A stretch of DNA of 64,000 nucleotides from Liolophura sinensis (lineage: Eukaryota; Mollusca; Polyplacophora; Chitonida; Chitonidae): assembly GCF_032854445.1 (NCBI RefSeq), contig NC_088300.1:80205084-80269083 (forward strand), in the 5' to 3' direction. The position numbers and the translations under genes were made by a program. Of this stretch, positions 12,374 through 64,000 are shown piece after piece (position 1 is the stretch's first letter; each line of letters begins with the position of its first letter). The notes beneath the pieces were generated by a model. That model saw only the letters and a list, made by a program, of their open reading frames with translations, ran no database searches and was not told the DNA's origin.

Positions 12374-12457
12374 ATGGCATCAATCTTGGATCAGTATGAG
12401 CAGGAATCTGCACGAGCAGCATCTAGTCTGACATCTCCTCAGAGCGTAACAGAGCCC
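12374..12457 (+). CDS. VPS18: VPS18 coding exon 1
   Basis: 28 codons, MASILDQYEQESARA..., donor 'ccc|gtaagt'. The first nine residues are nearly identical to vertebrate VPS18; the rest of the N-terminal tail is variable in the family. Confidence 0.93.
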
Positions 12458-15400
12458 GTAAGTATGTCCACATGCAGAGGACAGCCATGTCATAGCTGAA
12501 TATTTCACGTCCATCTGGGCTGCACGGTCTGCATATGCGGGCCAGCTATTGCGGGCCGACCATGGTTGGATCCTGTTTGATTGTGCATACAGCTATTGTC
12601 ACAACAGCACTTAGCACAGAAACAAATTTCCCTGGCCGAATGGTTAGCGTGCCAGTGCAGCACAGTGACTCAGGAGCCTAATACCATTGTGCAGGTTCTG
12701 TGAGTGGAAGTCCAGCTCATGATGGCCTCCTCTCCAGCAACACATGGAAAGGCCTGCCAGCAGCCTGCAGATGGTAGTAGGTTTACTCCAGATTCTTCAC
12801 GGGTTTCCTCCCACCATAATAATGTATAAGTGAAATATTCTTGAGTACCCGTCATATAAATAAATAAATGTAAACAAACTTGTAGGTGTACATTGCAGTT
12901 CTGCAGCTATTTTTGTTTGTTTGTTTGTTTAGTTATTCACTTGGACTTGTTTTATCTCATTACACATGTAATTAAATGTACATACAGTAAGTGTAGACAC
13001 TGGACAAAACTGGACTTACATGTATGTACCGATGTGACAAGATACAAGGCTGGCTTCATGTTGCCTTCCTCTCTGGCTATACATGAGTAGGGTTGGTGCA
13101 GTCTGCGGATGGTCATGGGTTTCCCCCAGGCTGTGCACGGTTTCCTCCCATTGTAATGCTGGCTGTCGTCGTATAAGTGAAATATTCTTGAGTACAGCAT
13201 AAAACACCAATCAAATAAATAAATAACAAGGCTGGCTGATGGTGATAAGATATAAGGGAATTTGTTACTAGAAATCTGATTCTACAGTATTCATGAGCAG
13301 TGTGTATCACTTCCAGGTTTGTTGTTGTACATTATTTATTTATCTGTTTGATTGGTGTGGGAGGAAACCGGGCATAGCCCGAGGGAAACCCACAACCATC
13401 CACAGGTTTATTGCAGATTGGAGGTGCATTGATAATTGTGAGCAGTGTGTATTAGGCCTACTCCCACGCTGTTGTTGTACGTTGAAGATGAGTGAGTGAG
13501 TGAGAGCTTGGGGGTTTAACATCCTGCTTAACAATTTTTCAGTCATATGACGACGAAGGAATCCTTGGAGTGCATGTAATGTGCCTCCTTATTGCAGGAC
13601 GGATTTCCATATCTAGTGCTGCTTCACTGAGATGCCTTACTGAAGGCAAGTAAGCCGCCCCGCCCGAGCCATTATACTGATACGGGTCAACCAGTCATTG
13701 CACTATCCCTTTCATGCTGAACGCCAAACAAGGAGTTACAACTTTCCCTTTCAAGGTCTTAGGTGTGACCCAACCGAGGATCTTCCAAGTGTGCTATCGG
13801 GGCTGGTCATTGAAGATTGAAGGTGCAGGGATAATTGTGTGCAGTGTGTATTACTGGCAGTTTGTTGTTGTACATTTTCAGATTGGAGGTGCAGGGATAA
13901 TTGTGTGCAGTGTGTATTACTGGCAGTTTGTTGTTGTACATTTTCAGATTGGAGGTGCAGGGATAATTGTGAGCAGTGTGTATTACTGACAGTTTGTTGT
14001 TGTTGTACATTTGCAGATTGGAGGTGCAGGGATAATTGATGCTCGTCTAAGGGAAACAGAACAACCTATCTTCAGCAAGAAAAAAGTTAACTTCAAGTAA
14101 GAAGGTTCCAGTGTGTGTCAGTGAAAGGGGTTTCTGCTGTTGGTTTGAAGTAGTGATGTCAGTGAAAGGGGTTTCTCCTGTTGGTCTGAAGTAGTGGTGT
14201 CAGTGAAAGGGGTTTCTCCTGTTGGTCTGAAGTAGTGTTAATCTCAGTCAGTGTCAAAAATTAATAGTGAGATGATGCACAAAGCAAAATAATTGATGAA
14301 AAGAGATAACTGAGTGCTTTACCCAGACAATTTTTGTCATTTTATTTCATCAACTAAAATTGAAGAATTCCATGTTTAGTGTAATGGTGAACAATTAAAT
14401 GAAACAAAGCTTCTTTACTCACCCTCTATAGATTATTTGATATAGTCCCCTTGAATTTTTTTTTGTTTTTTGTTTTTTTTATATTTGTTCAGTGATCCAA
14501 AAAGTTTAGGTTTTGTTGGATTGTGTTTTCAGACCTCCAGACCCAATTGTTCACTTGACGGTGTGTAACAACTACTTGGTGATGGCCATGAGTAGTAATA
14601 TCCTACTGAGACTGGATCTTGAACGCCCTGACCAGCCAGACGGTAAGTACTACTTTATGATCTGTCATATACAAGTACATGTACAGCCAGCCAGCAGAGA
14701 GAAACCCTACATCATAGAGGAAACATCAGCCTTCATTTTGAAAATGTAGAATCTATCCATGGACATTCTGTATGGTATGTATGGTATGAGCAATGAAACA
14801 AGTAACACATGCCACAGTATTAGTTAGTGCTTGCATGGACATTCTGTATGGTATGTATGGTATGAGCAGTGAAACAAGTAACACATGCCACAGTATTAGT
14901 TAGTGCTTGCATGGACATTCTGTATGGTATGAGCAATGAAACAAGTAACACATGCCACAGTATTAGTTAGTGCTTGCATGGACATTCTGTATGGTATGTA
15001 TGGTATGAGCAGTGAAACAAGTAACACATGCCACAGTATTAGTTAGTGCTTGCATGGACATTCTGTATGGTATGTATGGTATGAGCAGTGAAACAAGTAA
15101 CACATGCCACAGTATTAGTTAGTGCTTGCATGGACATTCTGTATGGTATGTATGGTATGAGCAATGAAACAAGTAACACATGCCACAGTATTAGTTAGTG
15201 CTTGCAAGGACATTTGATGAGAGTGGAATGCTGTGTGTAACACAGTATTTACCTGTCCGTGTACCTGTACTGTATTTGATGTGTATACATTGTACATTTA
15301 CAGAGGTGGAAGTAACAAAGGCAGTAGAGGACAGAGTACATAAGATATTCCTGGATCCTACAGGACGTCATCTCATAATCAGCATGGAGTCCACAGAGAA

Positions 15401-18400
15401 TTATTATCTCTCCAGAAACTCCAAGAAACCCAAAAATATTGGAAAATTAAAAGTAAGTTATAATAGTGAATAGTTTGCTGCTGTTTAGTGCTGAAGACTA
15501 CTCTGTGTAGTTTAATTTGTTCTGGTGATTGTTGAACACTGCTGTTTTCTCTTGAGAAAATCAAAGGAATGGAGAGCAGTTGAACATCATTGAATAGCTG
15601 AATTGCTAGCTTATCTTGTACAAGAACGAGTGACAGGTATGAATGTGGTTTTCTCTCACACTTGTCTCTATGATAATAAGCATATCCATTTATATCTGGG
15701 TGATTATTTATATTGTCACACTACCAAAACACTGATAAGATGTCGCTAAAGTGTGTTAGCAAATGTGCATACAATTGTCCAAATGTGAAAACCTTATTTA
15801 AGTATTCATATAATCTGCCTGACGTATGTTGACGGTTTATGCTCTTGTCCACAGGGTCATCATATTGACTCCGTGGGCTGGAATTGGCAGAATGCCAACG
15901 ACAATACAACAGGGGCCATACTGCTGGGGACCAGTAAAGGTGAGTGAAACCAGCAAAGTGATGTAAGTCCAGTTACCATCAATGTCACAGGGGCCATACT
16001 TCTGGGGACCAGTAAAGGTGAGTGAAACCAACAAAGTGATGTAAGTCCAGTTACCATCAATGCCACAGGGGCCATACTTCTGGGGACCAGTAAAGGTGAG
16101 TGAAACCAACAAAGTGATGTAAGTCCAGTTACCATCAGTGTCACAGGGGACATACTGCTGGGGACCAGTAAAGGTGAGTGAAACCAACAAAGTGATGTAA
16201 GTCCAGTTACCATCAATGTCACAGAGAACATACTTCTGGGGACCAGTAAAGGTGAGTGAAACCAACAAACTGATGTAAGTCCAGTTACCATCAATGTCAC
16301 AGGGGACATACTTCTGGGGACCAGTAAAGGTGAGTGAAACCAACAAAGTGATGTAAGTCCAGTTACCATCAATGCCACAGTGGACATACTTCTGGGGGCC
16401 AGTAAAGGTGAGTGAAACCAGCAAAGTGATGTAAGTCCAGTTACCATCAATGTCACAGGGGACATACTTCTGGGGACCAGTAAAGGTGAGTGAAACCAGC
16501 ACAGTGATGTAAGTCCAGTTACCATCAATGTCACACGGGACATACTTCTGGGGACCGGTAAAGGTGAGTGAAACCAGCACAGTGATGTAAGTCCAGTTAC
16601 CATCAATGTCACAGGGGACATACTTCTGGGGACCAGTAAAGGTGAGTGAAACCAGCACAGTGATGTAAGTCCAGTTACCATCAATGTCACAGGGGACATA
16701 CTTCTGGGGACCAGTAAAGGTGAGTGAAACCAGCACAGTGATGTAAGTCCAGTTACCATCAATGTCACAGGGGACATACTGCTGGGGACCAGTAAAGGTG
16801 AGTGAAACCAGCAAAGTGATGTAAGTCCAGTTACCATCAATGCCACACGGGACATACTTCTGGGCACCGGTAAAGGTGAGTGAAACCAGCACAGTGATGT
16901 AAGTCCAGTTACCATCAATGTCACAGGGGACATACTTCTGGGGACCGGTAAAGGTGAGTGAAACCAGCACAGTGATGTAAGTCCAGTTACCATCAATGTC
17001 ACAGGGGACATACTTCTGGGGACCAGTAAAGGTGAGTGAAACCAGCAAAGTGATGTAAGTCCAGTTACCATCAATGCCACACGGGACATACTTCTGGGGA
17101 CCGGTAAAGGTGAGTGAAACCAGCACAGTGATGTAAGTCCAGTTACCATCAATGTCACAGGGGACATCCTTCTGGGGACCAGTAAAGGTGAGTGAAACCA
17201 GCACAGTGATGTAAGTCCAGTTACCATCAATGTCACAGGGGCCGTACTGCTGGGGACCAGTAAAGGTGAATGAAACCAGCACAGTGATGTAAGTCCAGTT
17301 ACCATCAATGTCACAGGGGACATACTTCTGGGGACCGGTAAAGGTGAGTGAAACCAGCAAAGTGATGTAAGTCCAGTTACCATCAATGCCACACGGGACA
17401 TACTTCTGGGGACCGGTAAAGGTGAGTGAAACCAGCACAGTGATGTAAGTCCAGTTACCATCAATGTCACAGGGGACATACTTCTGGGGACCAGTAAAGG
17501 TGAGTGAAACCAGCAAAGTGATGTAAGTCCAGTTACCATCAATATCACAGGGGACATACTGCTGGGGACCGGTAAAGGTGAGTGAAACCAACAAAGTGAT
17601 GTAAGTCCAGTTACCATCAATGCCACAGTGGACATACTTCTGGGGACCAGTAAAGGTGATTGAGGCAGGCAAAGTGATGTAAGTCCAGTTACCATCAATG
17701 TCACAGGGGGCATTCTGCTGGGGACCAGTAAAGGTGATTGAGGCAGGCAAAGTGATGTAAGTCCAGTTACCATCAATGCCACAGGGGACATACTGCTGGG
17801 GACCAGTAAAGGTGATTGAAGCAGGCAAAGTGATGTAAGTCCAATTACCATCAATACCATAGAGGACATACATGTACTGCTGGGTATTTAATGTTTCCTG
17901 CTCTTGTTTAACAGCTGTTGTTCTACAAATGTGATCTGTTTCCACAGGGTTGATATTTGAGACAGAGCTGACAGCAAATGAGGAGACAAAGTTCTTCCAG
18001 GGAAGTTTAGACCAGTATTTAAAACAGGTCAGTTTTGGTAAATGTCTTTCTTTGTCCTAGTCTGACGTTACATTTCAAAGTTATATTGATTTAGTGCTGA
18101 TAATTAAAAAAAAATAAATGAAACAACTGCTATCACTTGCATACTAGGAGAACATACTGTAATTGGTTGACTTTTTGGGCCAGCTGACCAGCACTCATGG
18201 TCAGAAGGCTTGAGGGAAAGTTGGCAGAACAAGATCAAGGGCTGTAGGGGAATCTGATCAGAAAGGTTGAATAGCCCTCTGCGTACAGTTGATGTTCTCA
18301 CTCAAATAACTATAGACAGTATAGAAAGTCGGCACGTGTCAACTGGCTGGCTATGTGCATGGATACACTTTTGCCAGTGAAGGGGCCGCGTAGGCTTTGA

Positions 18401-54400: not shown

Positions 54401-57400
54401 GACCAATATGCAACACTGGGATTGGCTGTCATGTTGTGATATTTAGTCAGTCTGACCAATATGCAACACTGGGTATTGGCTGTTATGTTGTGATATTTAG
54501 TCAGTCTGACCAATATGCAACACTGGGTATTGGCTGTCATGTTGTGATATTTAGTCAGTCTGACCAATATGCAACACTGGGATTGGCTGTCATGTTGTGA
54601 TATTTAGTCAGTCTGACCAATATGCAACACTGGGATTGGCTGTCATGTTGTGATATTTAGTCAGTCTGACCAATATGCAACACTGGGATTGGCTGTCATG
54701 TTGTGATATTTAGTCAGTCTGACCAATATGCAACACTGGGTATTGGCATTTCAGGGTCATAGATGTGTAATTGTCAAAACTTTATCATTGATAAGCTCTG
54801 AGTTAATAAGGTTGCGTGTTTAGCCTCGTGTCATGTCAGGAAGGTGTATGTTTAGCCTTGCACCTGTTTTCACCTGTCTTATATCAGGAAGGTGTATGTT
54901 TAACCTCTCACATATTTGCACATTTATATCAGGAAGGTGTACATAAAGGAACAGCAGTGGCCGTCAGTAGACTCTGCTCTAATTACTCAAATTCAGGATA
55001 TCTGTTTCATGTCAGTATGTAAAATTCTTTTTGCCATGTCACCAAACATTGATAATGTGAGAAGTAACTCAGTTGTATTTAACCTGGCAAAGTATGTTTC
55101 ATCGCTGTTCTGTTTCTATACTCGGTGCTGCAGTCTTGTGTAGTGCATCGCCATAATACTTCCTGTTTATAGCCCCTTCCTTTTTACATAAATAACAAAT
55201 AACATTGACCATTGTTTACTTTTCTAAGGTATGCGTTTGTGAGGACTCAGGACAAATGTTCAGCCTGTAACTTCCCTTTACTGACCAGGACATTTTACCT
55301 GTTCCCATGCCAACACAAGTTCCATAATGACTGTCTTATAGGAGAGGTAAGGATGTAATATTTTCCGACATCCACTTGTGTGATTTTAACTGCATGCACT
55401 AGCATAAATAACTGTTCAAACAATATGTATACAAATACATATATATACATATACATCTATGCACATGTACTGTATCTTCAATAATTATAGTACAGCTTTT
55501 CAAGAGGTTGTTGCATGACTAACCATTTAAAATGCAGGGATTCAACTTAAATCATGTACATGTAGTGCTCATTGTATATTGCAAGATGTAAATGTTGAGT
55601 TAGAAATGTACATGTGTATTTAGAGTATATGTGGTACCTGTGTATATTTCACAGAGTTTGTCTTCAGTGCTGGAACGGTTTTCAAGATTGATGATTTTGA
55701 GAGTTTGCCCATGTTAATGGCTATGCTTGTTGGGCATTCTGAAACTGTCCTTGGTTAATTAGCTTAAATCAGTTACTATTGCCTTTGCTGTGTCTTGTCC
55801 AGGTGTTGCCTAACCTGACATTGTCTATCCGGGCTCGTGTTGAGGACTTACAGAGACAGCTTCAGGAGAAGGATGATCCACGCTACGCTTCACGTCTTGC
55901 CGCCACACCTGCCTCCATGCACAGCTCCAAGGAGCAGAACATCAAGGTGAGTACTGTAGATGTCACATGTGATGGTCCATGTCACACTTCACACCAGACC
56001 ACCACACCTGCCTCCATGCACAGCTCCAAGGAGCAGAACACCAAGTTGAGTACTGTAGATGTAACATGTGATGGTACATGTCACACTTCACACCTGACCA
56101 CCACACCTGCCTCCATGCACAGCTCCAAGGAGCAGGACATCAAGGTGAGTACTGTAGATGTCACATGTGATGGTCCATGTCACACTTCACACCTGACCAC
56201 CACACCTGCCTCCATTCACAGCTCCAAGGAGCAGAACATCAAGGTGAGTACTGTAGATGTCACATGTGATGGTACATGTCACACTTCACACCTGACCACC
56301 ACACCTGCCTCCATGCACAGCTCCAAGGAACAGAACATCAAGGTGAGTACTGTAGATGTCACATGTGATGGTCCATGTCACACTTCACACCTGACCACCA
56401 CACCTGCCTCCATGCACAGCTCCAAGGAGGAGAACATCAAGGTGAGTACTGTAGATGTCACATGTGATGGTCCATGTCACACTTCACACCTGACCGCCAC
56501 ACCTGCCTCCATGCACAGCTCCAAGGAGCAGAACATCAAGGTGAGTACTGTAGATGTCACATGTGATGGTCCATGTCACACTTCACACCTGACCACCACA
56601 CCTGCCTCCATGCACAGCTCCAAGGAGCAGAACATCAAGGTGAGTACTGTAGATGTCACATGTGATGGCCCATGTCACACTTCACACCTGACCACCACAC
56701 CTGCCTCCATGCACAGCTCCAAGGAGCAGGACATCAAGGTGAGTTGTTCTGTAGATGTCACATGTGATGGTCCATGTCACACTTCACACCTGACCACCAC
56801 ACCTGCCTCCATGCACAGCTCCAAGGAACAGAACATCAAGATGAGTACTGTAGATGTCACATGTGATGGTCCATGTCACACTTCACACCTGACCACCTTA
56901 CCTGCCTCCATGCACAGCTCCAAGGAGCAGAACATCAAGGTGAGTACTGTAGATGTCACATGTGATGGTCCATGTCACACTTCACACCTGACCACCTTAC
57001 CTGCCTCCATGCACAGCTCCAAGGAACAGAACATCAAGATGAGTACTGTAGATGTCACATGTGATGGTCCATGTCACACTTCACACCTGACCACCTTACC
57101 TGCCTCCATGCACAGCTTCAAGGAGCAGGACATCAAGGTGAGTACTGTAGATGTCACATGTGATGGTCCATGTCACACTTCACACCTGACCACCACACCT
57201 GCCTCCATGCACAGCTCCAAGGAGGAGAACATCAAGGTGAGTACTGTAGATGTAACATGTGATGGTACATGTCACACTTCACACCTGACCACCACACCTG
57301 CCTCCATGCACAGCTCCAAGGAGCAGAACATCAAGGTGAGTACTGTAGATGTCACATGTGATGGTCCATGTCACACTTCACACCTGACCACCACACCTGC

Positions 57401-59794
57401 CTCCATGCACAGCTCCAAGGAGCAGAACATCAAGGTGAGTTGTTCTGTAGATGTAACATGTGATGGTACATGTCACACTTCACACCTGAACACCACGCCT
57501 GCTTCCATGCAAAGCTCCAAGGAGCAGAACATCAAGGTGAGGTCATCACACCTGACCACCACACCTGCCTCCATGCACAGCTCCAAGGAGCAGGACATCA
57601 AGGTGAGTTGTTCTGTAGATGTAACATGTGATGGCCCATGTCACACTTCACACCTGACCACCACACCTGTCCCCATGCATAGCTCCAAGGAGCAGGACGT
57701 CAAGGTGTGTTCTTCAGTACTGTTCCAGGTCTGTTGGTCGCAAGATGTTGTGTAGGCACCAATTTTAGTCCAAAAACCACTTTATACATTTCTTTGGTGT
57801 TTAGCACCCTTCTCAAGAATGTTTCACTTATGACAGTGGTCAGCCGTATGTGGGAAACTCAGCCAGTGGGAAACAACCAGTGGATGTTCGTGGGTTTCCC
57901 CCTGGCTGTGTCTGGTTTTTTTCCACCACAATGCTGGCCGCTGTAGTATAAGTTAAATATTCTTTAGTACGGCATAAAATACCAATCAAATGAATAAATA
58001 AATATGATAGTGGTAGACTTAAGGTGGGGGAAACCTGACTCCCTGGAACGACACACCAACTGCAGCGGCAACAGGCTCCAGACAAACTTGACTTTACAGC
58101 TGGATCTGAAATAGGGAGAGCTTGGTTTAAAAACGTGACTGCCCGATATCCAAAGACCATGTTGTCTGTCATGAAAATTTAATGTTTCTGTTGTATTACA
58201 GTTTAGGTTAACAGGCTTTGCAGATATGTATCATGACAGTAAATGACTGACCTGGATGATATTGTTGGTCTCAGTGTGTGTAGTGTAGATATCTGTGTAT
58301 CATGACAGTAAATGGCTGAGCTGGATGATATTGTTACCCCAGTGTGTCTAGTGTAGATATCTGTTTATCATGACAGTAAATGGCTGAGCTGGATGATATT
58401 GTGACCTCAGTGTGTGTGGTGTAGATATCTGTGTATCATGACAGTAAATGGCTGAGCTGGATGATATTGTTGCCTCAGTGTGTGTAGTGTAGATATCTGT
58501 GTATCATGACAGTAAATGGCTGAGCTGGATGATATTGTGACCTCAGTGTGTCTAGTGTAGATATCTGTGTATCATGACAGTAAATGGCTGAGCTGGATGA
58601 TATTGTTACCTCAGTGTGTAGTGTACAGTTGTCTGTGTTATCGTGACAGTAATTGACTGAGCTGGATGATATTGTTGTCCCAGTGTGTCTAGTGTAGATA
58701 TCTGTGTATCATGACAGTAAATGGCTGAGCTGGATGATATTGTTACCTCAGTGTGTAGTGTACAGTTATCTGTGTATCATGACAGTAATTGACTGACCTG
58801 GATGATATTGTTGTCCCAGTGTGTCTAGTGTAGATATCTGTGTATCATGACAGTAAATGGCTGAGCTGGATGATATTGTTACCTCAGTGTGTAGTGTACA
58901 GATATCTGTGTATCATGACAGTAAATGGCTGAGCTGGATGATATTGTTGCCTCAGTGTGTGTAGTGTAGATATCTGTGTATCATGACAGTAAATGGCTGA
59001 GCTGGATGATATTGTTGCCTCAGTGTGTGTAGTGTAGATATCTGTGTATCATGACAGTAATTGACCGACCTGGATGATATTGTTGTCCCAGTTTGTCTAG
59101 TGTGGATATCTGTGTATCATGACAGTAAATGGCTGAGCTGGATGATATTGTTGCCTCAGTGTGTGTAGTGTATAGATCTGTGTATCATGACAGTAAATGG
59201 CTGAGCTGGATGATATTGTTGCCTCAATGTGTGTAGTGTAGATATCTGTGTATCATGACAGTAAATGACTGACCTGGATGATATTGTTGTCCCAGTGTGT
59301 CTAGTGTAGATATCTGTGTATCATGACAGTAATTGACCGACCTGGATGATATTGTTGTCCCAGTGTGTCTAGTGTAGATATCTGTGTATCATGACAGTAA
59401 ATGGCTGAGCTGGATGATATTGTTGCCTCAGTGTGTGTACTGTATAGATCTGTGTATCATTACAGTATGCCTGATTGTGTGTCCATTCATTTGTCTTTCA
59501 GGCTGAGCTGGATGACATCATTGCCTCAGAGTGTGTGTACTGTGGAGATTTCATGATCAGGTAATTATCATTACTATATTTACACACATGATCTACTTCT
59601 GTAACTTACTTTCACTGCTGTCAGATACAAGAGTCCATGTCAGTTCCCACAACTTTTTCAATATAATAAATATAATTTCCCAAAAAATTTCGTGGCTATT
59701 TTTAAGTGGTAAACAAACATTAATACACTAGTAAATTTTTTTTCTTAGGAATGTGGACAAGGAGTTTGTGGAAGGAGATGAATTTGAAATGTGA
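12374..59794 (+). CDS. VPS18: VPS18, core subunit of HOPS and CORVET tethering complexes, 28 coding exons
   Basis: Homologue of VPS18 / Pep3 / deep orange. Coding exons: 12374-12457, 14017-14096, 14533-14642, 15304-15452, 15855-15939, 17948-18027, 21673-21785, 24969-25057, 26242-26422, 31026-31112, 31447-31504, 31872-31975, 32236-32296, 33219-33283, 33615(or 33605)-33738, 36294-36441, 38401-38494, 40787-40860, 41079-41234, 43683-43823, 44260-44391, 51319-51403, 52739-52866, 53972-54093, 55229-55346, 55803-55946, 59502-59560, 59749-59794. Phases agree throughout except in exons 15-16. The product is about 972 aa (human 973): an N-terminal beta-propeller (about residues 50-400), an alpha-solenoid with clathrin-type repeats (about 400-850), then a RING finger (C861, C864, C878, H880, H883, C886, C949, C952). 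In the family it bridges the Vps-C core on late endosomes, lysosomes and early endosomes and promotes membrane tethering and SNARE assembly. The introns are packed with arrays copied from the gene's own splice junctions. Confidence 0.96.
12630..12868 (+). mobile_element. SINE A copy (tRNA-derived)
   Basis: Starts with the tRNA-like 'ggccgaatggttagcgtgcc' and ends 'aagtgaaatattcttgagta' followed by an 'aaataaataaat' tail. Same family as 41558-41823. In VPS18 intron 1. Confidence 0.75.
13052..13228 (+). mobile_element. SINE A, 5'-truncated copy
   Basis: Lacks the tRNA-like head. Contains the shared body ('ggatggtcatgggtttcccc', 'cggtttcctccca') and tail ('gaaatattcttgagtacag', 'aaacaccaatcaaataaata'). 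Confidence 0.75.
13240..14016 (+). repeat. Array copied from the exon 2 acceptor (66-bp unit), interrupted by SINEs
   Basis: The true exon 2 starts at 14017 after 'tacatttgcag'. Exon-like starts beginning 'attggaggtgcagggataat' also occur at 13948 and 13882 after 'tacattttcag', and at 13816 with changes; the step is 66 bp. An older copy ('gattggaggtgcattgataa') lies near 13417, cut off by a SINE B insertion, and a further decayed copy near 13290. A reversed SINE A fragment lies at about 13335-13400. Confidence 0.85.
13487..13800 (-). mobile_element. SINE B, reverse orientation
   Basis: Reverse complement of the element at 3812-4076: starts 'gagtgagtgagtgagag', then 'gggggtttaacat' and 'cagtcatatgacgacgaagg', and ends 'acgccaaacaagg'. 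It sits inside the exon 2 acceptor array. Confidence 0.75.
14017..14096 (+). CDS. VPS18: VPS18 coding exon 2
   Basis: 80 nt, IGGAGIIDARLRETEQPIF then SKKKVNFK; donor 'ttcaa|gtaagaagg'. Corresponds to the vertebrate segment with EVPIFTKQRIDF. It is the only copy in the 66-bp array that reads on into conserved sequence. Confidence 0.92.
14117..14240. repeat. Short 41-bp tandem triplication
   Basis: Three copies of a unit containing 'cagtgaaaggggtttctcct' and 'gttggtctgaagtagtg', just inside intron 2. No exon sequence included. Confidence 0.8.
14533..14642 (+). CDS. VPS18: VPS18 coding exon 3
   Basis: 110 nt; acceptor 'gtgttttcag', donor 'gacg|gtaagt'. Encodes PPDPIVHLTVCNNYLVMAM and LLRLDLERPDQPD, an early beta-propeller blade (vertebrate ITSLVVSSNQLCMSL ... 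LLRIDL). Confidence 0.93.
14745..15205. repeat. ~73-bp tandem array in intron 3
   Basis: Six copies of a unit containing 'gcttgcatggacattctgta', 'tggtatgagcagtgaaacaa' and 'gtaacacatgccacagtatt'. One copy lacks an internal 8-bp 'tggtatgt' duplication. No exon sequence recognised in it. Confidence 0.92.
15304..15452 (+). CDS. VPS18: VPS18 coding exon 4
   Basis: 149 nt; acceptor 'acatttacag', donor 'aaa|gtaagt'. Encodes EVEVTKAVEDRVHKIFLDP, then TGRHLIISMESTENYYLSR; vertebrate KVHKMFLDHTGSHLLIALSSTE aligns directly. Beta-propeller. Confidence 0.96.
15855..15939 (+). CDS. VPS18: VPS18 coding exon 5
   Basis: 85 nt; acceptor 'cttgtccacag', donor 'aaag|gtgagt'. Encodes GHHIDSVGWNWQNAN and TTGAILLGTSKG, matching vertebrate ESVGWN ... 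STGPILVGTAQG. The last ~30 nt are the source of the following array. Confidence 0.95.
15940..17885 (+). repeat. Array copied from the exon 5 donor (78-bp unit, ~24 copies)
   Basis: Each unit holds 'acaggggccatactgctggg' plus 'gaccagtaaag' (the exon 5 end) and donor 'gtgagtgaaacc', then about 36 bp of intron. The step is 78 bp. The first base after 'acaggg' varies (gcc/gac). The last three copies differ ('gattgaggcaggcaaagtg'). The minus-strand frames of 702 and 669 codons across it are repeat artefacts. Read in the VPS18 frame, the array stops at once (GGT GAG TGA), so retention would truncate the protein. Confidence 0.95.
17948..18027 (+). CDS. VPS18: VPS18 coding exon 6
   Basis: 80 nt; acceptor 'gtttccacag', donor 'cag|gtcagt'. 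Encodes GLIFETELTANEETKFFQG and SLDQYLKQ (vertebrate GHIFEAELSASE). Beta-propeller. Confidence 0.94.
18028..19430. other. Intron 6, unique part
   Basis: No gene, repeat or mobile element recognised in these 1.4 kb; AT-rich intronic sequence. Confidence 0.4.
19432..19622. repeat. 30-bp AT-rich tandem array
   Basis: Six copies of a unit made of 'cataatgtcagtcataatat' + 'gacataatat'. It is partly self-complementary (cataatat / atattatg), so it could form hairpins. Confidence 0.9.
19998..20595. repeat. 31-bp tandem array, ~19 copies
   Basis: Highly homogeneous units of 'tgtgtatagatcagaactac' + 'atatgctgtac'; a few copies carry 'gacat' for 'tacat'. No exon content; in intron 6. Confidence 0.95.
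20596..21460. other. Intron 6, unique part
   Basis: No coding or repeat structure beyond a possible SINE tail fragment near 21270-21310 ('ccttgtcatacaacggcatt' followed by 'aaacccc'). Confidence 0.4.
21462..21652 (+). mobile_element. SINE A, truncated and diverged
   Basis: Contains 'gagttcaagtctagctcatg', 'gaaacattcttgagtacagt' and 'aaacaccaattatataaata'. It lies directly before the exon 7 acceptor region. Confidence 0.7.
21673..21785 (+). CDS. VPS18: VPS18 coding exon 7
   Basis: 113 nt; acceptor 'atacttgacag', donor 'ccagg|gtaata'. Encodes LFNLGKEKAVPVTGLEFDR and TEYKYYILATTPG, matching vertebrate FVIATTRQR. The second half seeds the next array. Confidence 0.94.
21786..22880 (+). repeat. 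Array copied from exon 7 and its donor (98/99-bp unit, ~11 copies)
   Basis: Each copy has 'cattgtgtacag' (acceptor-like), then 78 nt resembling exon 7 (ending 'ctggccaccacaccagg') and the donor 'gtaatac'. The exon-like part keeps EYKYxILATTPG. Some copies have an extra t ('tacttacatac'), giving 99 bp and breaking the frame. Copies with 'agtac-agtg' and 'agtac-aatg' alternate, which hints at a two-unit higher-order repeat. Confidence 0.95.
22930..24968 (+). repeat. Array copied from the exon 8 acceptor (104-bp unit, ~19 copies)
   Basis: Each unit has 'gttttcctgtctacag' followed by a copy of the exon 8 start ('ccacctgtaccagtttattg' plus 'ggaacatctccacctcag'), then 'gtgtgttaacattatttagc'. Two exon variants occur, 'tttattggg' (as in the true exon) and 'tttagaagg'. 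The last unit runs directly into the real exon 8 at 24969. Confidence 0.95.
24969..25057 (+). CDS. VPS18: VPS18 coding exon 8
   Basis: 89 nt; acceptor 'gtctacag', donor 'acag|gtttgt'. Joins exon 7 to give TTPG-RLYQFIGNISASAE (vertebrate TRQRLFQFIGRAAE) and continues PPMFLHIFQQYEQMT. It is the only copy in the array that leads into unique coding sequence. Confidence 0.93.
25205..26241 (+). repeat. Array copied from the exon 9 acceptor (83-84-bp unit, ~12 copies)
   Basis: Exon-like starts lie at 25230, 25314, 25397 and so on to the real one at 26242. Units carry 'ctgatgtacag' + 'aacagt', then a version of 'ctggagctgccaggtaactt' and 'ggctatagtcagtta', i.e. the first ~43 nt of exon 9. Three subtypes are interspersed ('aacagttcctggagcttcc', 'aacagtgccagagctgcc', 'aagtactcctggaccagctg'). 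Confidence 0.93.
26242..26422 (+). CDS. VPS18: VPS18 coding exon 9
   Basis: 181 nt; acceptor 'ctgttgtacag', donor 'attgc|gtatccttt'. Encodes EQFLELPGNFGYSELRLYQ, PKFREPARSFAWMTGPGVY and YGTIDV, nearly colinear with vertebrate FREFPSNLGYSEL ... RAFAWMMGDGVLYGALD. The donor is U12-type. Confidence 0.96.
26423..26431 (+). promoter_or_regulatory. VPS18: U12-type 5' splice site of intron 9
   Basis: GTATCCTTT is the strict consensus of the minor-spliceosome donor. Phase and homology force this junction: A-Y-P is completed only by joining GC to C-TAC-CCA at 31026. Confidence 0.88.
26445..28700. repeat. 75-bp tandem array, ~30 copies, in the U12-type intron
   Basis: Exact 75-bp step (four units per 300 bp). 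The unit includes 'tagaagtgaagtatgggtga', 'tgctttgctgatattaccag' and 'agattcagagatctctctgg'. The last part is an inverted repeat ('ccagaga' ... 'tctctgg', with 'agagatctct' in the centre), so each unit can fold into a hairpin. Very homogeneous. Begins 23 bases after the exon 9 donor but contains no exon sequence. Confidence 0.96.
28701..29074. other. Intron 9, unique spacer
   Basis: About 370 bp of AT-rich single-copy sequence between two arrays. Nothing recognised. Confidence 0.4.
29075..30912 (+). repeat. 45-bp tandem array, ~40 copies, before the exon 10 acceptor
   Basis: Unit of 'gtacagtactggtaaagttt' + 'tcctaactcagcataagtca' + 'atggt' (45 bp, 15 codons), open in one plus frame for 609 codons. 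The open frame has no other support. The part 'ttttcctaactcagcatag' resembles the real intron 9 3' end 'tttcatcttaactgtgcatag', so the array may derive from the U12-type branch site and acceptor. Confidence 0.95.
31007..31025 (+). promoter_or_regulatory. VPS18: Putative U12-type branch site and acceptor of intron 9
   Basis: 'tcatcttaactgtgcatag': the TCTTAAC core fits the U12 branch consensus TTCCTTAAC. Its branch A is about 10-11 bases from the AG, within the short distance typical of minor introns. Confidence 0.75.
31026..31112 (+). CDS. VPS18: VPS18 coding exon 10
   Basis: 87 nt; donor 'gaaag|gtcagt'. Encodes AYPREENERSSPPIAIVTT and EFHILILFQER, matching vertebrate PPLAIVLTQFHFLLLLADR. 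End of the beta-propeller. Confidence 0.95.
31447..31504 (+). CDS. VPS18: VPS18 coding exon 11
   Basis: 58 nt; acceptor 'gttgtttcag', donor 'gat|gtaagt'. Encodes RLKAICSLNDQLIYDDLYA-D (vertebrate RVEAVCTLTGQVV). Confidence 0.93.
31872..31975 (+). CDS. VPS18: VPS18 coding exon 12
   Basis: 104 nt; acceptor 'ttgtgacag', donor 'gccag|gtaaga'. Encodes RFGRLLGLCKDPLRGTIWA, YTPQCVFKYKVVREA-R; vertebrate QLWAYTERAVFRYHVQREAR aligns without gaps. Confidence 0.95.
32236..32296 (+). CDS. VPS18: VPS18 coding exon 13
   Basis: 61 nt; acceptor 'atgattgtag', donor 'aag|gtaggc'. Encodes RDVWQMYLDKEEFELAKEY-CK, a family signature (vertebrate RDVWRTYLDMNRFDLAKEYC) at the start of the alpha-solenoid. Confidence 0.97.
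32300..32480. repeat. (TCTG)n / (TG)n microsatellite
   Basis: Low-complexity run of tg, tctg and tgtctgcatgtctg units beginning a few bases after the exon 13 donor. Frames on both strands are compositional artefacts. Confidence 0.95.
32960..33218 (+). repeat. Array copied from the exon 14 acceptor (~115-bp unit, 2 copies plus the true one)
   Basis: 'catcttgtattcag' + 'gacaaccctatatagatg' at about 32988 and 'catcttgtgttcag' + 'gacaaccctgtatacatg' at about 33103 precede the real acceptor at 33218. The spacer ('tctgcctatgtgtttggcca') is also duplicated. Confidence 0.9.
33219..33283 (+). CDS. VPS18: VPS18 coding exon 14
   Basis: 65 nt; acceptor 'ttgtgtttcag', donor 'tctga|gtgagt'. Encodes DNPVYMDKVLTRQAEYFF then NHSE (vertebrate PDCLDTVLAREADFCFRQR). 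Confidence 0.95.
33615..33738 (+). CDS. VPS18: VPS18 coding exon 15, 5' end uncertain
   Basis: From about 33622 the reading VCHAQNSFEEITLKFIK, EALKSFLQRKMGSLKAQ is certain (vertebrate SYFEEIALKFLEARQEEALAEFLQRK). Donor 'cag|gtacat'. The family places a RYxESA-like motif just before, and YEKSA is indeed encoded at 33606-33620, but in a frame that hits TGA at 33621. An acceptor at 33604 therefore needs a one-base correction near 33621. The acceptor at 33614 keeps the frame but loses four residues. I give the frame-keeping version. Confidence 0.75.
33739..34345 (+). repeat. Array copied from the exon 15 donor (~88-bp unit, ~7 diverged copies)
   Basis: Variants of 'gatgggttcactgaaggcta' + 'ag|gtaggc' recur near 33815, 33875, 33950, 34037, 34127, 34214 and 34300, with 'gtcagcagtgtggcatgaga' spacers. 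Donors are intact in some copies (gtaggc, gtaagc) and lost in others ('ggaagc', 'agtaga'). More diverged than most other arrays here. Confidence 0.88.
34560..35205. repeat. ~27-bp minisatellite
   Basis: Units like 'tgctcatgatggccctagtc' + 'tgtgtcc', with indels among them. Short open frames across it are artefacts; no exon content recognised. Confidence 0.92.
35385..36275 (+). repeat. ~890-bp pyrimidine-rich tandem tract before the exon 16 acceptor
   Basis: Almost entirely C and T on the plus strand. The right part is an array of ~48-bp units including 'ccctcgccccatcccataat' and 'ccttctctcaccccatccta' + 'tccttctt'. It runs to within about 20-50 bases of the exon 16 acceptor (36293), so it is in effect an extended polypyrimidine tract. 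The proline/serine-rich open frame through it is compositional. Confidence 0.93.
36294..36441 (+). CDS. VPS18: VPS18 coding exon 16, frame broken by four one-base indels
   Basis: Acceptor 'acctgtttcag', donor 'aag|gtgagt'. In pieces it encodes KTQVTMLVIWLIEIYLNNM, GELRSKG, DMSQKYDAVQEEFQRF and SHSKVK, the vertebrate RTQATLLTTWLTELYLSRLG ... region. Joining them needs one base more at the start, one more in 'atggtgag', one fewer in 'gggaagat' and one more in 'ggttctctcc'. The corrected length is exactly 50 codons and fits the flanking phases. The downstream tandem copies carry 'aggttcctcttcca', which supports the last correction. Confidence 0.85.
36442..38065 (+). repeat. Array copied from the exon 16 donor (~110-130-bp unit, ~13 copies)
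   Basis: Each unit contains 'gtgtacaggagtcgtttgag' + 'aggttgctcttccactctaa' + 'ggtcaag' (the exon end) and donor 'gtgagtcaggcact', then 'ccacctacctgcacgtttct'. Unit length varies through intron deletions. The exon-like part reads QESFERLLFHSKVK and differs consistently from true exon 16 (QEEFQRFxSHSKVK), so the copies expanded from one already altered duplicate. Confidence 0.93.
38188..38367 (+). mobile_element. SINE A, 5'-truncated copy
   Basis: Body 'ctggtttcctctctggctgt' to tail 'gaaatattcttgagtatggt' and 'ctaccaatcaaataaataaa'. Ends 34 bases before exon 17. Confidence 0.78.
38401..38494 (+). CDS. VPS18: VPS18 coding exon 17
   Basis: 94 nt; acceptor 'gttgtttacag', donor 'caag|gtctgt'. 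Encodes ECVSNNRSTVYDLIASHGD, IEDMIYFAVLMQ (vertebrate SRASIHELLASHGDTEHMVYFAVIMQ). Confidence 0.97.
38649..40010. mobile_element. Non-autonomous DNA transposon (outer element)
   Basis: Begins 'agggtgcgcacagtccttga' and ends 'gacctgtacgaaccct' + 'a'. The two ends are imperfect inverted repeats (AGGGTGCGCACAG against AGGGTTCGTACAG). 'taatg' occurs on both outer sides as a possible target duplication. No transposase frame. It contains a second element at 38843-39744. In intron 17. Confidence 0.6.
38843..39744. mobile_element. Nested hAT-like non-autonomous element
   Basis: Begins 'cagggcttccgctggc' and ends 'gacccagaggaagccctg', inverted repeats sharing CAGGGCTTCC. About 900 bp, AT-rich, no supportable coding region. 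No convincing 8-bp target duplication was seen. It lies wholly inside the element at 38649-40010. Confidence 0.6.
40045..40786 (+). repeat. Array copied from the exon 18 acceptor (~27-bp unit, ~26 copies)
   Basis: Unit 'gtgtttgtgtttgcagactt' + 'tgatgga'. The true exon 18 begins 'ttgcag|attttgagcgtg', so each unit holds the acceptor and the first few exon bases. Copies with 'tttgcag' (usable acceptors) dominate near the exon and 'tttgtag' upstream. In the VPS18 frame the last five copies are open and read DFDGVFVFA. Confidence 0.94.
40787..40860 (+). CDS. VPS18: VPS18 coding exon 18
   Basis: 74 nt; donor 'cag|gtatgt'. Encodes DFERVISHHLQHDNYTGAL, DVLRKQ (vertebrate DYERVVAYHCQHEAYEEALAVLARH). 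Confidence 0.96.
41079..41234 (+). CDS. VPS18: VPS18 coding exon 19
   Basis: 156 nt; acceptor 'tatattttag', donor 'cag|gtaaaa'. Encodes SDVELFYKFSPLLMQYVP, KETVNAWIEQDTKLDPKKL, IPALVQYDHEKYREQ (vertebrate LFYKFSPILIRHIPRQLVDAWIEM ... LIPALVNY). Confidence 0.97.
41235..42960 (+). repeat. Array copied from the exon 19 donor (68-bp unit and variants, ~22 copies)
   Basis: Unit: 'cagtatgaccatgagaaata' + 'cagggaacag' (exon 19 end) + donor 'gtaaaatactg' + 'tgactgatatcagtcc'. The left copies are 68 bp; later copies diverge ('gagaagtacagagagcag|gt' + 'aagacactg') and shorten to about 54-62 bp. A SINE interrupts it at 41558. Confidence 0.94.
41558..41823 (+). mobile_element. SINE A, full-length tRNA-derived copy with 15-bp target duplication
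   Basis: The 5' head is tRNA-like, with A box 'tggctcagttgg' and B box 'gagttcaagtcc', the polymerase III promoter elements. It is followed by a body ('ggtcgtgggtttcccccggg') and tail 'gaaatattcttgagtacagc', 'aaacaccaatcaaataaata'. 'tattgtgatcatgag' flanks both sides (41543-41557, 41824-41838). It may belong to a molluscan V-SINE family such as RUDI; this needs a library search. Confidence 0.88.
42961..43682. other. Intron 19, unique part
   Basis: AT-rich single-copy sequence; nothing recognised. The segments 'ggtccca' ... 'tatttgggacca' and similar stretches near 43150 and 43445 are loosely inverted, possibly an old MITE. Confidence 0.4.
43683..43823 (+). CDS. VPS18: VPS18 coding exon 20
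   Basis: 141 nt; acceptor 'gtgtgttttcag', donor 'cag|gtaact'. Encodes GNEAIRYLEFCIQKLNNKD, QAIHNYMLSLYAKLQPKHL, MKYLLSQGQ (vertebrate AIRYMEFCVN ... EQAIHNYLLSLYA). Alpha-solenoid. Confidence 0.97.
44260..44391 (+). CDS. VPS18: VPS18 coding exon 21
   Basis: 132 nt; acceptor 'ctgtacccag', donor 'cag|gtaagc'. Encodes DADSICYDLKYGLRLCAEH, SHKEACVHIYSVMGLYEEA, VDLALQ (vertebrate YDLKYALRLCAEHGHHRACVHVYKVLELYEEAVDLALQ). The last 57 nt are the exonic part of the following giant array. Confidence 0.97.
44392..50815 (+). repeat. Giant array copied from the exon 21 donor (93-bp unit, ~69 copies)
   Basis: Unit: 36 bp of intron ('gtaagcaagacatacctggg' or gtgagc, then 'ggaaaggggaggggg') plus 57 bp of exon 21 end (VHIYSVMGLYEEAVDLALQ). 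The 93-bp period equals 31 codons and continues the exon 21 frame, so the first roughly nine copies and, separately, 47663-50824 are open in one frame; one-base indels break it near 45255, 46040, 46535 and others. Variants: LYEEA/LTEEA, Q to P before the donor ('ccggtgagc'), TYLGE/TCLGE. The pattern is of repeated unequal exchange with recent homogenisation. Confidence 0.96.
50816..51318. other. Intron 21, unique 3' part
   Basis: About 500 bp before exon 22 with a partial SINE B-like tail near 51050-51100 ('catacgacttaaaaattgtt' + 'aagtatgacataaaacccc'). Otherwise nothing recognised. Confidence 0.5.
51319..51403 (+). CDS. VPS18: VPS18 coding exon 22
   Basis: 85 nt; acceptor 'gttcatgtcag', donor 'atag|gtaagt'. 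Encodes VDVELAKDQADKPDEDDEE, LRKKLWLRI (vertebrate VDVDLAKQCADLPEEDEELRKKLWLKIA). Confidence 0.97.
51404..52365 (+). repeat. ~45-bp array apparently copied from the exon 22 donor (~20 copies)
   Basis: True donor region: 'ggatag|gtaagtac' followed by 'ttaacacatgatacctaccc'. Repeat units read 'acag|gtcagtac' or 'atag|gtcagtac' followed by 'tcaccaggtcacctacccac' and 'tagtaat'. The first unit still has 'ttaacacatgatacctaccc', which links it to the donor. Only a few exon bases are included. Confidence 0.85.
52739..52866 (+). CDS. VPS18: VPS18 coding exon 23
   Basis: 128 nt; acceptor 'ctttgtttgtag', donor 'aag|gtaagg'. Encodes ARHVVEEEKDVKRAMAFLH, ECELLKIEDILPFFPDFVT, IDHFK, the most conserved stretch of the family (vertebrate LLKIEDVLPFFPDFVTIDHFKE). 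Confidence 0.98.
53125..53971 (+). repeat. Array copied from the exon 24 acceptor (~110-120-bp unit, ~7 diverged copies)
   Basis: Each copy has a version of 'tctgttgtcag' + 'gacgccatcatccagtccct' + 'acaggagtacagccagcaca' + 'tagacaccctgaagg', then 'tgtggctgaggtacctcctg'. Copies differ at many positions and several have lost the AG ('gttgtcgggg', 'gttgtgaggg'), so this is among the older arrays. Confidence 0.9.
53972..54093 (+). CDS. VPS18: VPS18 coding exon 24
   Basis: 122 nt; acceptor 'tctgttgtcag', donor 'aacaa|gtaaat'. Encodes DAIIQSLQEYNQHIDTLKE, EMEEATQSAEEIRKEIQSF, RNK (vertebrate KEAICSSLKAYNHHIEELQREMEEATASAQRIRRDLQEL). Predicted helix or coiled coil before the RING. Confidence 0.97.
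54112..54755. repeat. ~52-54-bp tandem array in intron 24, ~12 copies
   Basis: Very homogeneous units of 'tgtcatgttgtgatatttag' + 'tcagtctgaccaatatgcaa' + 'cactgggattggc'. Starts about 20 bases inside the intron; no exon bases are included. Confidence 0.95.
55229..55346 (+). CDS. VPS18: VPS18 coding exon 25 (RING finger, first part)
   Basis: 118 nt; acceptor 'acttttctaag', donor 'gag|gtaagg'. Encodes YAFVRTQDKCSACNFPLLT, RTFYLFPCQHKFHNDCLIG-E with zinc ligands C-x2-C and C-x-H-x2-H-x2-C, as in vertebrate QDKCATCDFPLL ... FLCGHMFHADC. Confidence 0.98.
55803..55946 (+). CDS. VPS18: VPS18 coding exon 26 (RING linker)
   Basis: 144 nt; acceptor 'gtgtcttgtccag', donor 'aag|gtgagt'. Encodes VLPNLTLSIRARVEDLQRQ, LQEKDDPRYASRL and ATPASMHSSKEQNIK. 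This is the variable linker between the two halves of the RING (vertebrate GLPAYKQARLEELQRKLG and a low-complexity stretch), so length changes may be tolerated. Confidence 0.93.
55947..57712 (+). repeat. Array copied from the exon 26 donor (99-bp unit, ~18 copies), open in frame
   Basis: Unit: donor and intron 'gtgagtactgtagatgtcac' + 'atgtgatggtccatgtcaca' + 'cttcacacctgaccaccac', then the exon 26 end (PASMHSSKEQNIK). The 99-bp period is 33 codons and the whole array remains open in the exon 26 frame to a stop at 57753-57755. Some copies have 'gtgagttgttctgtag' (102 bp, still in frame) and some have lost the donor ('aagatgagt', 'aagttgagt'). One copy near 57540 is short. Confidence 0.95.
57775..58006. 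mobile_element. Two SINE A pieces in inverted orientation
   Basis: 57775-57835 resembles the reversed SINE tail ('tttggtgtttagcacccttc', 'tcaagaatgtttcac'). 57838-58006 is a forward 5'-truncated copy ending 'taaatattctttagtacggc', 'aaataccaatcaaatgaata'. Confidence 0.65.
58215..59501 (+). repeat. Array copied from the whole of exon 27 (~68-bp unit, ~19 copies)
   Basis: Unit 'aaatggctgagctggatgat' + 'attgttgcctcagtgtgtgt' + 'agtgtagatatctgtgtatc' + 'atgacagt' parallels true exon 27 ('gctgagctggatgacatcat' + 'tgcctcagagtgtgtgtact' + 'gtggagatttcatgatcag|gt') end to end. The copies carry substitutions and a 2-bp loss that destroy the CVYC zinc-ligand codons and bring in stops, so they cannot replace the exon. 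Confidence 0.92.
59502..59560 (+). CDS. VPS18: VPS18 coding exon 27 (RING finger, last zinc ligands)
   Basis: 59 nt; acceptor 'ttgtctttcag', donor 'atcag|gtaatt'. Encodes AELDDIIASECVYCGDFMI with the final C-x2-C pair (vertebrate ADLDELVAAECVYCGELMIRS). Confidence 0.97.
59749..59794 (+). CDS. VPS18: VPS18 coding exon 28 and stop
   Basis: Acceptor 'ttttttcttag'; encodes RNVDKEFVEGDEFEM then TGA at 59792-59794. Vertebrates continue a few residues further (…YEEEQLSWL). A 'agctggtta' (S-W-L in another frame) follows 5 bases after the stop, so a one-base error here is possible. Confidence 0.85.
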
Positions 59795-61624: not shown

Positions 61625-64000
61625 ACAACGTAAACTCAAAACTGTGACTGATACTAGTATATGTGTGCTATACAGGAAGCCAGATGTAAGCACAAAACTG
61701 TGACTGACACTGGTAGATGTGTGCTATACAGGAAGCCAGATGTAAAACCAAAACTGTGACTGATACTAGTACATGTGTTGCTATACAGGAAGCAGATGTA
61801 AACTCAAAACTGTGACTGATACTGTACATGTGTGCTATACAGGAAGCCAGATGTAAGCACAAAACTGTGACTGACACTGGTACATGTGTGCTATACAGGA
61901 AGCCAGACGTAAACTCAAAACTGTGACTGACACTAGTACATGTGTGCTATACAGGAAGCCAGATGTAAACCCAAAACTGTGACTGACACTAGTATATGTG
62001 TGCTATACGGGAAGCCAGATGTAAGCACAAAACTGTGACTGACACTGGTACATGTGTGCTATACGGGAAGCCAGATGTAAACCCAAAACTGTGACTGATA
62101 CTGGTACATGTGTGCTATACGGGAAGCCAGATGTAAACCCAAAACTGTGACTGACACTAGTATATGTGTGCTATACAGGAAGCCAGATGTAAACCCAAAA
62201 CTGTGACTGACACTAGTATATGTGTGCTATACAGGAAGCCAGATGTAAACCCAAAACTGTGGACTGACACTGGTAGATGTGTGCTATACAGGAAGCCAGA
62301 TGTAACCCAAAACTGTGACTGATACTGGTACATGTGTGCTATACAGGAAGCCAGATGTAAACCCAAAACTGTGACTGACACTAGTACATGTGTGCTATAC
62401 AGGAAGCCAGATGTAAACCCAAAACTGTGACTGACACTGGTACATGTGTGCTATACAGGAAGCCAGATGTAAACCCAAAACTGTGACTGACACTGGTACA
62501 TGTGTGCTATACAGGAAGCCAGATGTAAACCCAAAACTGTGACTGACACTGGTACATGTGTGCTATACAGGGAGCCAGATGTAAACCCAAAACTGTGACT
62601 GACACTGGTAGATGTGTGCTATACAGGAAGCCAGATGTAAACCCAAAACTGTGACTGACACTAGTATATGTGTGCTATACAGGAAACCAGATGTAAACCC
62701 AAAACTGTGGACTGACACTGGTACATGTGTGCTATACAGGAAGCCAGATGTAAACCCAAAACTGTGACTGACACTAGTACATGTGTGCTATACAGGAAGC
62801 CAGATGTAAACCCAAAACTGTGACTGACACTAGTACATGTGTGCTATACAGGAAGCCAGATGTAAAACCCAAAACTGTGACTGACACTGGTACATGTGTG
62901 CTATACAGGAAGCCAGATGTAAACCCCAAAACTGTGACTGACACTAGTACATGTGTGCTATACAGGAAGCCAGATGTAAACCCAAAACTGTGACTGACAC
63001 TAGTACATGTGTGCTATACAGGAAGCCAGATGTAAACCCAAAACTATGACTGACACTAGTAGATGTGTGCTATACAGGAAGCCAGATGTAAACCCAAAAC
63101 TGTGACTGACACTGGTAGATGTGTGCTATACAGGAAGCCAGATGTAAACCCAAAACTGTGACTGGATACTGGTACATGTGTGCTATACAGGAAGCCAGAT
63201 GTAAACCCAAAACTGTGACTGACACTAGTACATGTGTGCTATACAGGAAGCCAGATGTAAACCCCAAAACTGTGACTGACACTAGTACATGTGTGCTAAT
63301 ACAGGAAGCCAGATGGTAAACCCAAAACTATGACTGACACTAGTATATGTGTGCTATACAGGAAGCCAGATGTAAACCCAAAACTGTGACTGACACTAGT
63401 ACATGTGTGCTATACAGGAAGCCAGATGTAAACCCAAAACTGTGACTGACACTGGTACATGTGTGCTATACAGGAAGCCAGATGTAAGCACAAAACTGTG
63501 ACTGACACTGGTAGATGTGTGCTATACAGGAAGCCAGATGTAAACCCAAAACTGTGACTGACACTAGTACATGTGTGCTATACAGGAAGCCAGATGTAAA
63601 CCCAAAACTGTGACTGACACTGGTAGATGTGTGCTATACAGGAAGCCAGATGTAAGCACAAAACTGTGACTGACACTAGTATATGTGTGCTATACAGGAA
63701 GCCAGATGTAAGCACAAAACTGTGACTGACACTACTACATGTGTGTTATACAGGAAGCCAGATGTAAACCCAAAACTGTGACTGACACTAGTATATGTAT
63801 GCTATACAGGAAGCCAGATGTAAACCCAAAACTATGACTGACACTAGTATATGTATGCTATACAGGAAGCCAGATGTAAACCCAAAACTATGACTGACAC
63901 TACTACATGTGTGTTATACAGGAAGCCAGATGTAAGCACAAAACTGTGACTGACACTACTACATGTGTGTTATACAGGAAGCCAGATGTAAACCCAAAAC
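61625..64000. repeat. 56-bp satellite-like array, ~42 copies, runs off the window
   Basis: Unit 'ccaaaactgtgactgacact' + 'ggtacatgtgtgctatacag' + 'gaagccagatgtaaac'. The step is 56 bp with occasional one-base indels. Variants are 'ggtac/agtac/agtat/ggtag' after 'cact' and 'aaaccc/aagcac' at the end. Short frames on both strands are artefacts. It is intergenic, downstream of VPS18, and its right end is not in the window. Confidence 0.96.

Follow-up and report, generated by a model that had tools for sequence, protein, structure and literature searches.

Tandem repeat arrays at the splice junctions of a chiton VPS18 gene, probable "mirage" minisatellites in a mollusc

Why should the introns of one gene be filled with tandem copies of that gene's own splice junctions? 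The question is raised by a VPS18 gene of the chiton Liolophura sinensis, lying within a 64,000-nt stretch of contig NC_088300.1 (hereafter the window, whose numbering is used throughout). A first-pass annotation, made from the letters alone, had reported sixteen arrays at the intron edges of this gene, and here we determined which of them contain exon sequence, whether they favour junctions over other intronic positions, where the repeated units begin and end, and whether comparable arrays occur in other genes.

The VPS18 gene and its tandem arrays

The gene was modelled with 29 exons, and AG and GT are present at all internal edges of the 27 modelled exons. For domain analysis, the draft product was divided into two pieces, with the broken stretch of exon 15 omitted and one copy of exon 17 inserted. 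The N-terminal piece covers positions 1-353 of the 353 of the Pep3_Vps18 beta-propeller profile (Pfam, E 2.6e-111), the C-terminal piece matches Clathrin region/VPS (Pfam, E 3e-8), and the PDB match of the product is VPS18 (8dit_C). The domain layout of VPS18, with an N-terminal Pep3_Vps18 propeller and a C-terminal clathrin-like region, was thus recovered, and on the strength of this predicted product the gene is identified as VPS18. Stop-free frames extend through (i) exons 1-14, (ii) the conserved part of exon 15 together with exon 16, and (iii) exons 18-29, while exon 17 is seen solely as repeat copies. Exon 15 (33605-33640) is in phase with exon 14 at its start and then meets a TGA and a change of frame ahead of its conserved part, which could stem from an erroneous base in the assembly or from genuine decay. 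A DNA search of the assembly with a 251-base stretch including exon 24 returned the VPS18 locus only, and the 64-kb window gave no Rfam match at gathering scores. Upstream of VPS18, the minus strand carries exon-like open frames (8118-8678 and 9607-10044), perhaps of a membrane protein gene.

Tandem Repeats Finder (TRF) identified 27 clusters with a period of at least 20 inside VPS18 (arrays with a period below 20 were excluded from this count), and since the two clusters of intron 20 form one family, the gene contains 26 arrays. Exon sequence of the adjoining junction is present in 14 of them (Table 1): six donor arrays (exons 5, 7, 15, 20, 22 and 27), seven acceptor arrays (exons 2, 8, 9, 14, 19, 25 and 28) and the microexon array of exon 17, so that both boundary types are duplicated about equally. 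The array before exon 28 is a weaker case, as it contains exon bases without the true acceptor and therefore has the character of a boundary-spanning minisatellite in part only. The other 12 arrays are purely intronic, in agreement with the first-pass view that general minisatellite growth is active in the gene. Among 44,376 intron bases, 30,038 are located in arrays and 21,627 (about half) in junction-spanning arrays; arrays cover 63% of the gene vs. 17% of the preceding 12 kb.

Inclusion of the gene's own junctions was confirmed with an exon-edge test, in which the last 40 exonic nt at each edge were compared with the exon's own intron and, as a control, with 25 other introns. Twelve of the 52 edges score over 3 points above their best control (on the acceptor side, exons 2, 8, 9, 14, 25 and 28; on the donor side, exons 5, 7, 15, 20, 22 and 27); in 11 of these the match reaches the exon edge exactly, and at exon 25 it stops 3 nt short. 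The acceptor of exon 23 is weak (12 vs. 11 for the control) and was left out of the count, and at the remaining 39 edges the match to the own intron is no better than to the 25 control introns. The arrays of the exon 19 acceptor and of exon 17, unflagged by this test, were added from sequence inspection. TRF intervals enter an exon at 10 of the 27 clusters, at exon 19 by just 7 nt. The number of junction arrays is hence somewhat lower than the sixteen proposed earlier: the repeats before exon 10 and after exon 23 (exon 22 of the earlier numbering), described as acceptor and donor arrays, are intronic only by both the edge test and inspection. Exons 16, 18, 19, 21, 22, 24, 26 and 27 of the first-pass annotation correspond to exons 17, 19, 20, 22, 23, 25, 27 and 28, respectively, of the present model.

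Further features of the repeats were recorded. The donor arrays of exons 22 (44203-45417) and 27 (55743-57755) are open in the frame of their exon for hundreds of codons, because their units, of 93 and 99 bp, are multiples of three and happen to be without a stop. Just beyond VPS18, an array with a 56-bp unit (42 copies within the window) occupies positions 61630-64000, continues past the window end, and contains an acceptor-like TATACAG inside its unit. A possible distinction between non-integer copy numbers in spanning arrays and integer ones in intronic arrays was set aside, since copies at the outer end of an array may be cut short or degraded, as at exon 8.

Table 1. VPS18 and the tandem arrays of its introns, in window positions
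Feature	Positions	Strand	Unit (bp)	Copies	Exonic nt	Basis and remarks
VPS18 gene, 29 exons	12374-59794	+				Pfam profile, PDB match, exon modelling; last exon 59749-59794
Acceptor-spanning, before exon 2	13814-14038	+	66		22	TRF, edge test
Donor-spanning, after exon 5	15909-17871	+	78	25	31 (TRF)	TRF, edge test
Donor-spanning, after exon 7	21713-22890	+	99	12	73 (TRF)	TRF, edge test
Acceptor-spanning, before exon 8	22942-24999	+	104	20	31 (TRF)	TRF, edge test
Acceptor-spanning, before exon 9	25194-26285	+	83	13	44 (TRF)	TRF, edge test
Purely intronic, intron 9	26451-28700	+	75			One of the 12 non-spanning arrays
Acceptor-spanning, before exon 14	32944-33240	+	116		22 (TRF)	TRF, edge test
Donor-spanning, degenerate, after exon 15	33717-34350	+	88			TRF 33923-34350 only; earlier copies from alignment and inspection
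Exon 17 array	36404-38052	+		12 and a first copy		39-nt microexon segment, 12 copies at 36510-37934; 38-nt first copy at 36404-36441
Acceptor-spanning, before exon 19	40058-40799	+	27	28	~13	TRF end 40793; not flagged by edge test
Donor-spanning, after exon 20	41204-42961	+	66-68 and 127	23		TRF (two blocks), edge test
Donor-spanning, after exon 22	44333-50814	+	93	70	59 (TRF)	TRF, edge test
Purely intronic, after exon 23	51430-52352	+	45			Called donor type in the first-pass annotation
Acceptor-spanning, degenerate, before exon 25	53123-54010	+	112			Edge gap 3; TRF end 53930; last copy from alignment
Donor-spanning, after exon 27	55903-57707	+	99	18	44 (TRF)	TRF, edge test
Array before exon 28	58227-59541	+	68			Matches exon from first base, true acceptor outside unit; TRF end 59467, rest from alignment

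Placement, unit ends and decoy splice sites

The expected number of junction-spanning arrays was obtained from a placement model, in which each intron was collapsed to one unit per array and the unit was placed randomly inside the intron or across its junction, with an array counted as spanning when it included at least 10 exonic nt. At the present non-array intron lengths, 5.80 of the 26 arrays are expected to span a junction vs. 14 observed (P=4.3e-5). When introns are capped at 350, 250, 200 and 150 bp, the expectation rises to 7.5 (P=0.003), 9.0 (P=0.02), 10.2 (P=0.07) and 12.2 (P=0.28), respectively; the eight array-free introns of VPS18 have a median length of 350 bp. The size of the excess thus varies with the intron lengths assumed prior to array growth, and the gene was itself picked for showing the pattern. 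The data are suggestive of a junction preference, and the excess, earlier described as not explained by chance placement, is no longer significant at ancestral introns of 200 bp or less. Base composition shows a weak tendency: non-spanning arrays have an average GC content of 0.429 vs. 0.376 for the remaining introns (0.43 in junction windows), but against random intron windows only one of the 12 arrays is beyond 5%, and another is far below the windows.

A blind sample was taken from 200 kb of the same contig (10.0-10.2 Mb, about 70 Mb from VPS18), in which arrays make up 21% of the sequence. An ab initio exon search over 32 kb of this block yielded 3 exons only, and the genes were therefore anchored by hand; their names are those of the genes we take them to resemble. 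The sample includes: (i) an SPTLC2-like gene (nine 3' exons, open over every join), with junction copies at 3 of 16 edges, all donors; (ii) a TTC13-like gene, incomplete, of which six exons were used (candidates near 15475, 19961 and 32895 were omitted for an unclear edge), with junction copies at 2 of 10 edges (one donor and one acceptor) and an extra acceptor array, unflagged by the edge test, with 11 exonic nt; and (iii) a YLPM1-like gene, of which some exons were used, with none of the 4 tested edges flagged and one borderline donor (14 vs. a control maximum of 13). The junction-array pattern is therefore found in two of the three blind genes. In the SPTLC2-like and TTC13-like genes, 4 of 16 TRF arrays span junctions vs. 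1.38 expected (P=0.02), and in all three genes 4 of 19 vs. 1.75 expected (P=0.065), a small sample, in which a junction preference is suggested. Arrays cover 39% of the three genes vs. 17% of the remaining block, and a link between arrays and transcribed genes is possible. A second blind block (40 kb at 30 Mb), in which no gene was recognisable, contains 4.8% arrays. Introns and intergenic stretches also share a dispersed repeat, possibly a SINE, whose translation is GRKPGRARGKPTTIRRL...HELDLNSQRP or the reverse (window positions 13270-13600 and 57800-57950, and several places in the 10.0-10.2 Mb block).

In the VPS18 arrays, the fraction of the unit that is exonic ranges from 0.19 to 0.74, and a uniform distribution is not rejected (KS P=0.19, n=13 arrays). 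Spanning units (27-127) are longer than non-spanning ones (27-76; P=7e-4), as is predicted by random, length-biased placement. An ungapped scan found AGGT within about 3 nt of the exon-side boundary in none of the 12 arrays yielding copies (exon 19 yielded no copies, and the scan of exon 7 halted early, at 22 nt). The TRF boundary of the exon 7 array falls at CAG/GT, and in five donor arrays (exons 5, 7, 20, 22 and 27) the two ends, judged by eye, share about 0-2 bp. The junction lies at variable depth inside the unit, contrary to the proposal that the duplications start and end at AG-GT.

The extra junction copies of 12 arrays (those of exons 17 and 28 were uncounted), collected only at a match of at least 62%, number 218, of which 207 retain the splice dinucleotide: GT is kept in 142 of 149 extra donors and AG in 65 of 69 extra acceptors. 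In most arrays these dinucleotides are approximately as conserved as the neighbouring bases. The decoys are not undergoing removal, which would fit the use of the first donor and the last acceptor, an idea underlain by exon definition as it is generally understood.

Origin of the arrays and a possible new intron at exon 16

The arrays are probably minisatellites of the type termed mirages, in which an exon-intron junction falls by chance within the unit, and which owe their existence to ordinary birth and selection. In the introns of this chiton, tandem duplications would be frequent events, their ends lying more or less at random. Duplications inside exons would be removed by selection, and those crossing a junction would survive, with the spliceosome, by exon definition, taking the outermost copy and leaving the mRNA unchanged; unequal exchange could then enlarge the arrays, to 70 copies in one of them. 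The moderate junction excess could be due to ancestral introns having been short, with a slight tendency of arrays towards GC-richer DNA as a possible further cause, and a special AGGT mechanism is unnecessary. The view of random ends is based on the junction depths (compatible with uniform), the nearly equal numbers of donor and acceptor arrays and the lack of AGGT boundaries. Counting against plain placement are the 14 spanning arrays vs. 5.8 at present intron lengths, the restriction of the flagged SPTLC2-like edges to donors and the weakness of the GC leaning. The first-pass suggestion that selection retains splicing-neutral duplications stands insofar as no coding exon entirely contains any of the 27 TRF clusters; the AG-GT unit ends that it presupposed were not found in the ungapped scan.

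Two alternatives assign the junction itself a part in the initiation of the duplications. If junctions were true hot spots, at which a GC step, transcription or R-loops, or splice-signal microhomology starts duplication at exon edges, the excess in VPS18 and in two blind genes, together with the denser array cover of the three blind genes relative to the rest of their block, would follow. The excess nevertheless fades at 200-bp and 150-bp ancestral introns, the probability for three blind genes is weaker than for two, VPS18 was ascertained for the pattern and the blind sample is small; we regard this explanation as unlikely, though deserving of consideration. Splice sites as actual breakpoints, with AG-GT at either end of each duplication (the Rogers model, in the version of the first-pass annotation), would account for the CAG/GT boundary that TRF gives for the exon 7 array, but the absence of AGGT at all 12 exon-side boundaries of the ungapped scan (halted early at exon 7), the near lack of shared bases at the ends of five donor arrays and the position of the junction inside the unit make it highly improbable.

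The other alternatives concern the status of the arrays and of the gene. A function for the arrays, in which the decoy sites or the array as such would regulate VPS18 splicing or aid intron removal, agrees with the mostly intact decoy dinucleotides, but in most arrays the conservation of these is similar to that of the adjacent bases, and unrelated genes have arrays with unrelated units, so that we give this idea very little credence. A decaying pseudogene, whose junction copies are simply unselected, could be read from the TGA and frame break of exon 15, the TGA met on reading past exon 16 and the single base missing from the first copy of exon 17; it is very doubtful given that exons 1-14 and 18-29 are open and in phase, the whole Pep3_Vps18 profile is matched and the DNA search of the assembly with the exon 24 stretch returned one place only. 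An assembly artefact is scarcely credible, as the copies are diverged, the flanks are clean and the same pattern appears in genes 70 Mb away, even if the exon 15 break may be a base error and the 6.5-kb array may have been assembled with an incorrect number of copies at the 14x HiFi coverage and mean read of 8.3 kb given for the published Liolophura japonica assembly (PMC11068029). Mirage minisatellites formed by duplication with random ends remain our preferred explanation.

The microexon array between exons 16 and 18 may illustrate a further step. When exon 16 is read past its donor (ATG/GTGAGC), the same frame meets a TGA at 36359-36361, beyond which it continues, with residues that fit VPS18, to the 1-nt loss in the first copy of the exon 17 segment. 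Ten of the 12 later copies are 39 nt long and two are 38 nt long; CAG is directly upstream of 10 of them and GT directly downstream of 11, six of these sites being GTGAGT. Scored with a matrix built from VPS18's own splice sites, five copies (36641, 37014, 37385, 37512 and 37896) combine an acceptor of at least 6.4, a donor of at least 5, a length of 39 and no stop, whereas the donor of exon 16 has a score of 3.7, low in the range of VPS18 donors. Both flanks of exon 17 are in phase 0. We tentatively propose, as a possibility drawn from the sequence, that a spliceosomal intron was born here from a mirage array, the old 3' part of exon 16 being bypassed and its coding role passing to at least one 39-nt microexon copy. 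The simplest form of this reading is that the old end of exon 16 has been given up and one exon 17 copy serves in its place; the alternative is that both places contain a base error and the old exon is read through. As each copy would contribute 13 in-phase residues, VPS18 proteins of varying repeat number could also be produced.

Comparison with known systems

Minisatellites that span exon-intron boundaries have been described in amphioxus under the name of mirages, in the globin genes BflGb6 and BflGb9 (PMC3087553); the same report cites the Adh paper and presents retinol dehydrogenase and presenilin gene cases. A mirage of PGBD5 in amphioxus has also been reported, with Adh and TnC cited (PMC3902484). 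The VPS18 arrays would accordingly be mirages in a mollusc, and the phenomenon itself is already known (PMC3087553, PMC3902484); the first-pass annotation had supposed a gene showing it at over a dozen junctions to be undescribed. In the available text of the literature found, mirages are confined to amphioxus, and their presence in at least three genes of a mollusc indicates that cephalochordates are not alone in having the process. Among the titles and abstract openings of the matches listed for molluscs or chitons (with minisatellites, intron gain, decoys and mirages as topics, and with thin coverage of subscription journals), no junction array in a mollusc was found. Tandem repeats constitute 9.21% of the genome of another chiton, Acanthochiton rubrolineatus, and the accessible part of that report contains nothing on splice junctions (PMC11545220). 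The chiton genome offers a test of the step from junction duplication to a new intron, as well as a natural test of exon definition, with up to 67 intact decoy donors beside one real donor.

The amphioxus mirages (BflGb6, BflGb9, Adh3, TnC and PGBD5), with unit lengths between 10 and about 160 bp, resemble the VPS18 arrays in affecting both sides of exon boundaries and in carrying many AG or GT copies (PMC3087553, PMC3902484). The VPS18 arrays differ in their molluscan host, in their number (14 in one gene vs. one or a few per amphioxus gene) and in including one array of 70 copies and one that repeats a microexon. The ATP2A1 and potato RdRp cases are alike in that duplication supplies splice sites, in potato with the intron-exon structure copied (PMC4974935), whereas in VPS18 existing introns grow without an AGGT-bounded exonic duplication, and a new intron is suspected only at exons 16/17. 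Human segmental duplications provide another parallel, as internal tandem repeats at exon-intron boundaries can yield new introns (PMC2812944); those, however, are recently duplicated paralogs, and VPS18 was found at a single place in one search. Among molluscs, the abalone TSSK1-like gene has a polymorphic intronic minisatellite with a 27-bp unit, which in the available text is described without an exon boundary (PMC6905558). The closest correspondence for exons 16 and 17, if our tentative reading is right, is the model of intron birth drawn for the amphioxus globins (PMC3087553).
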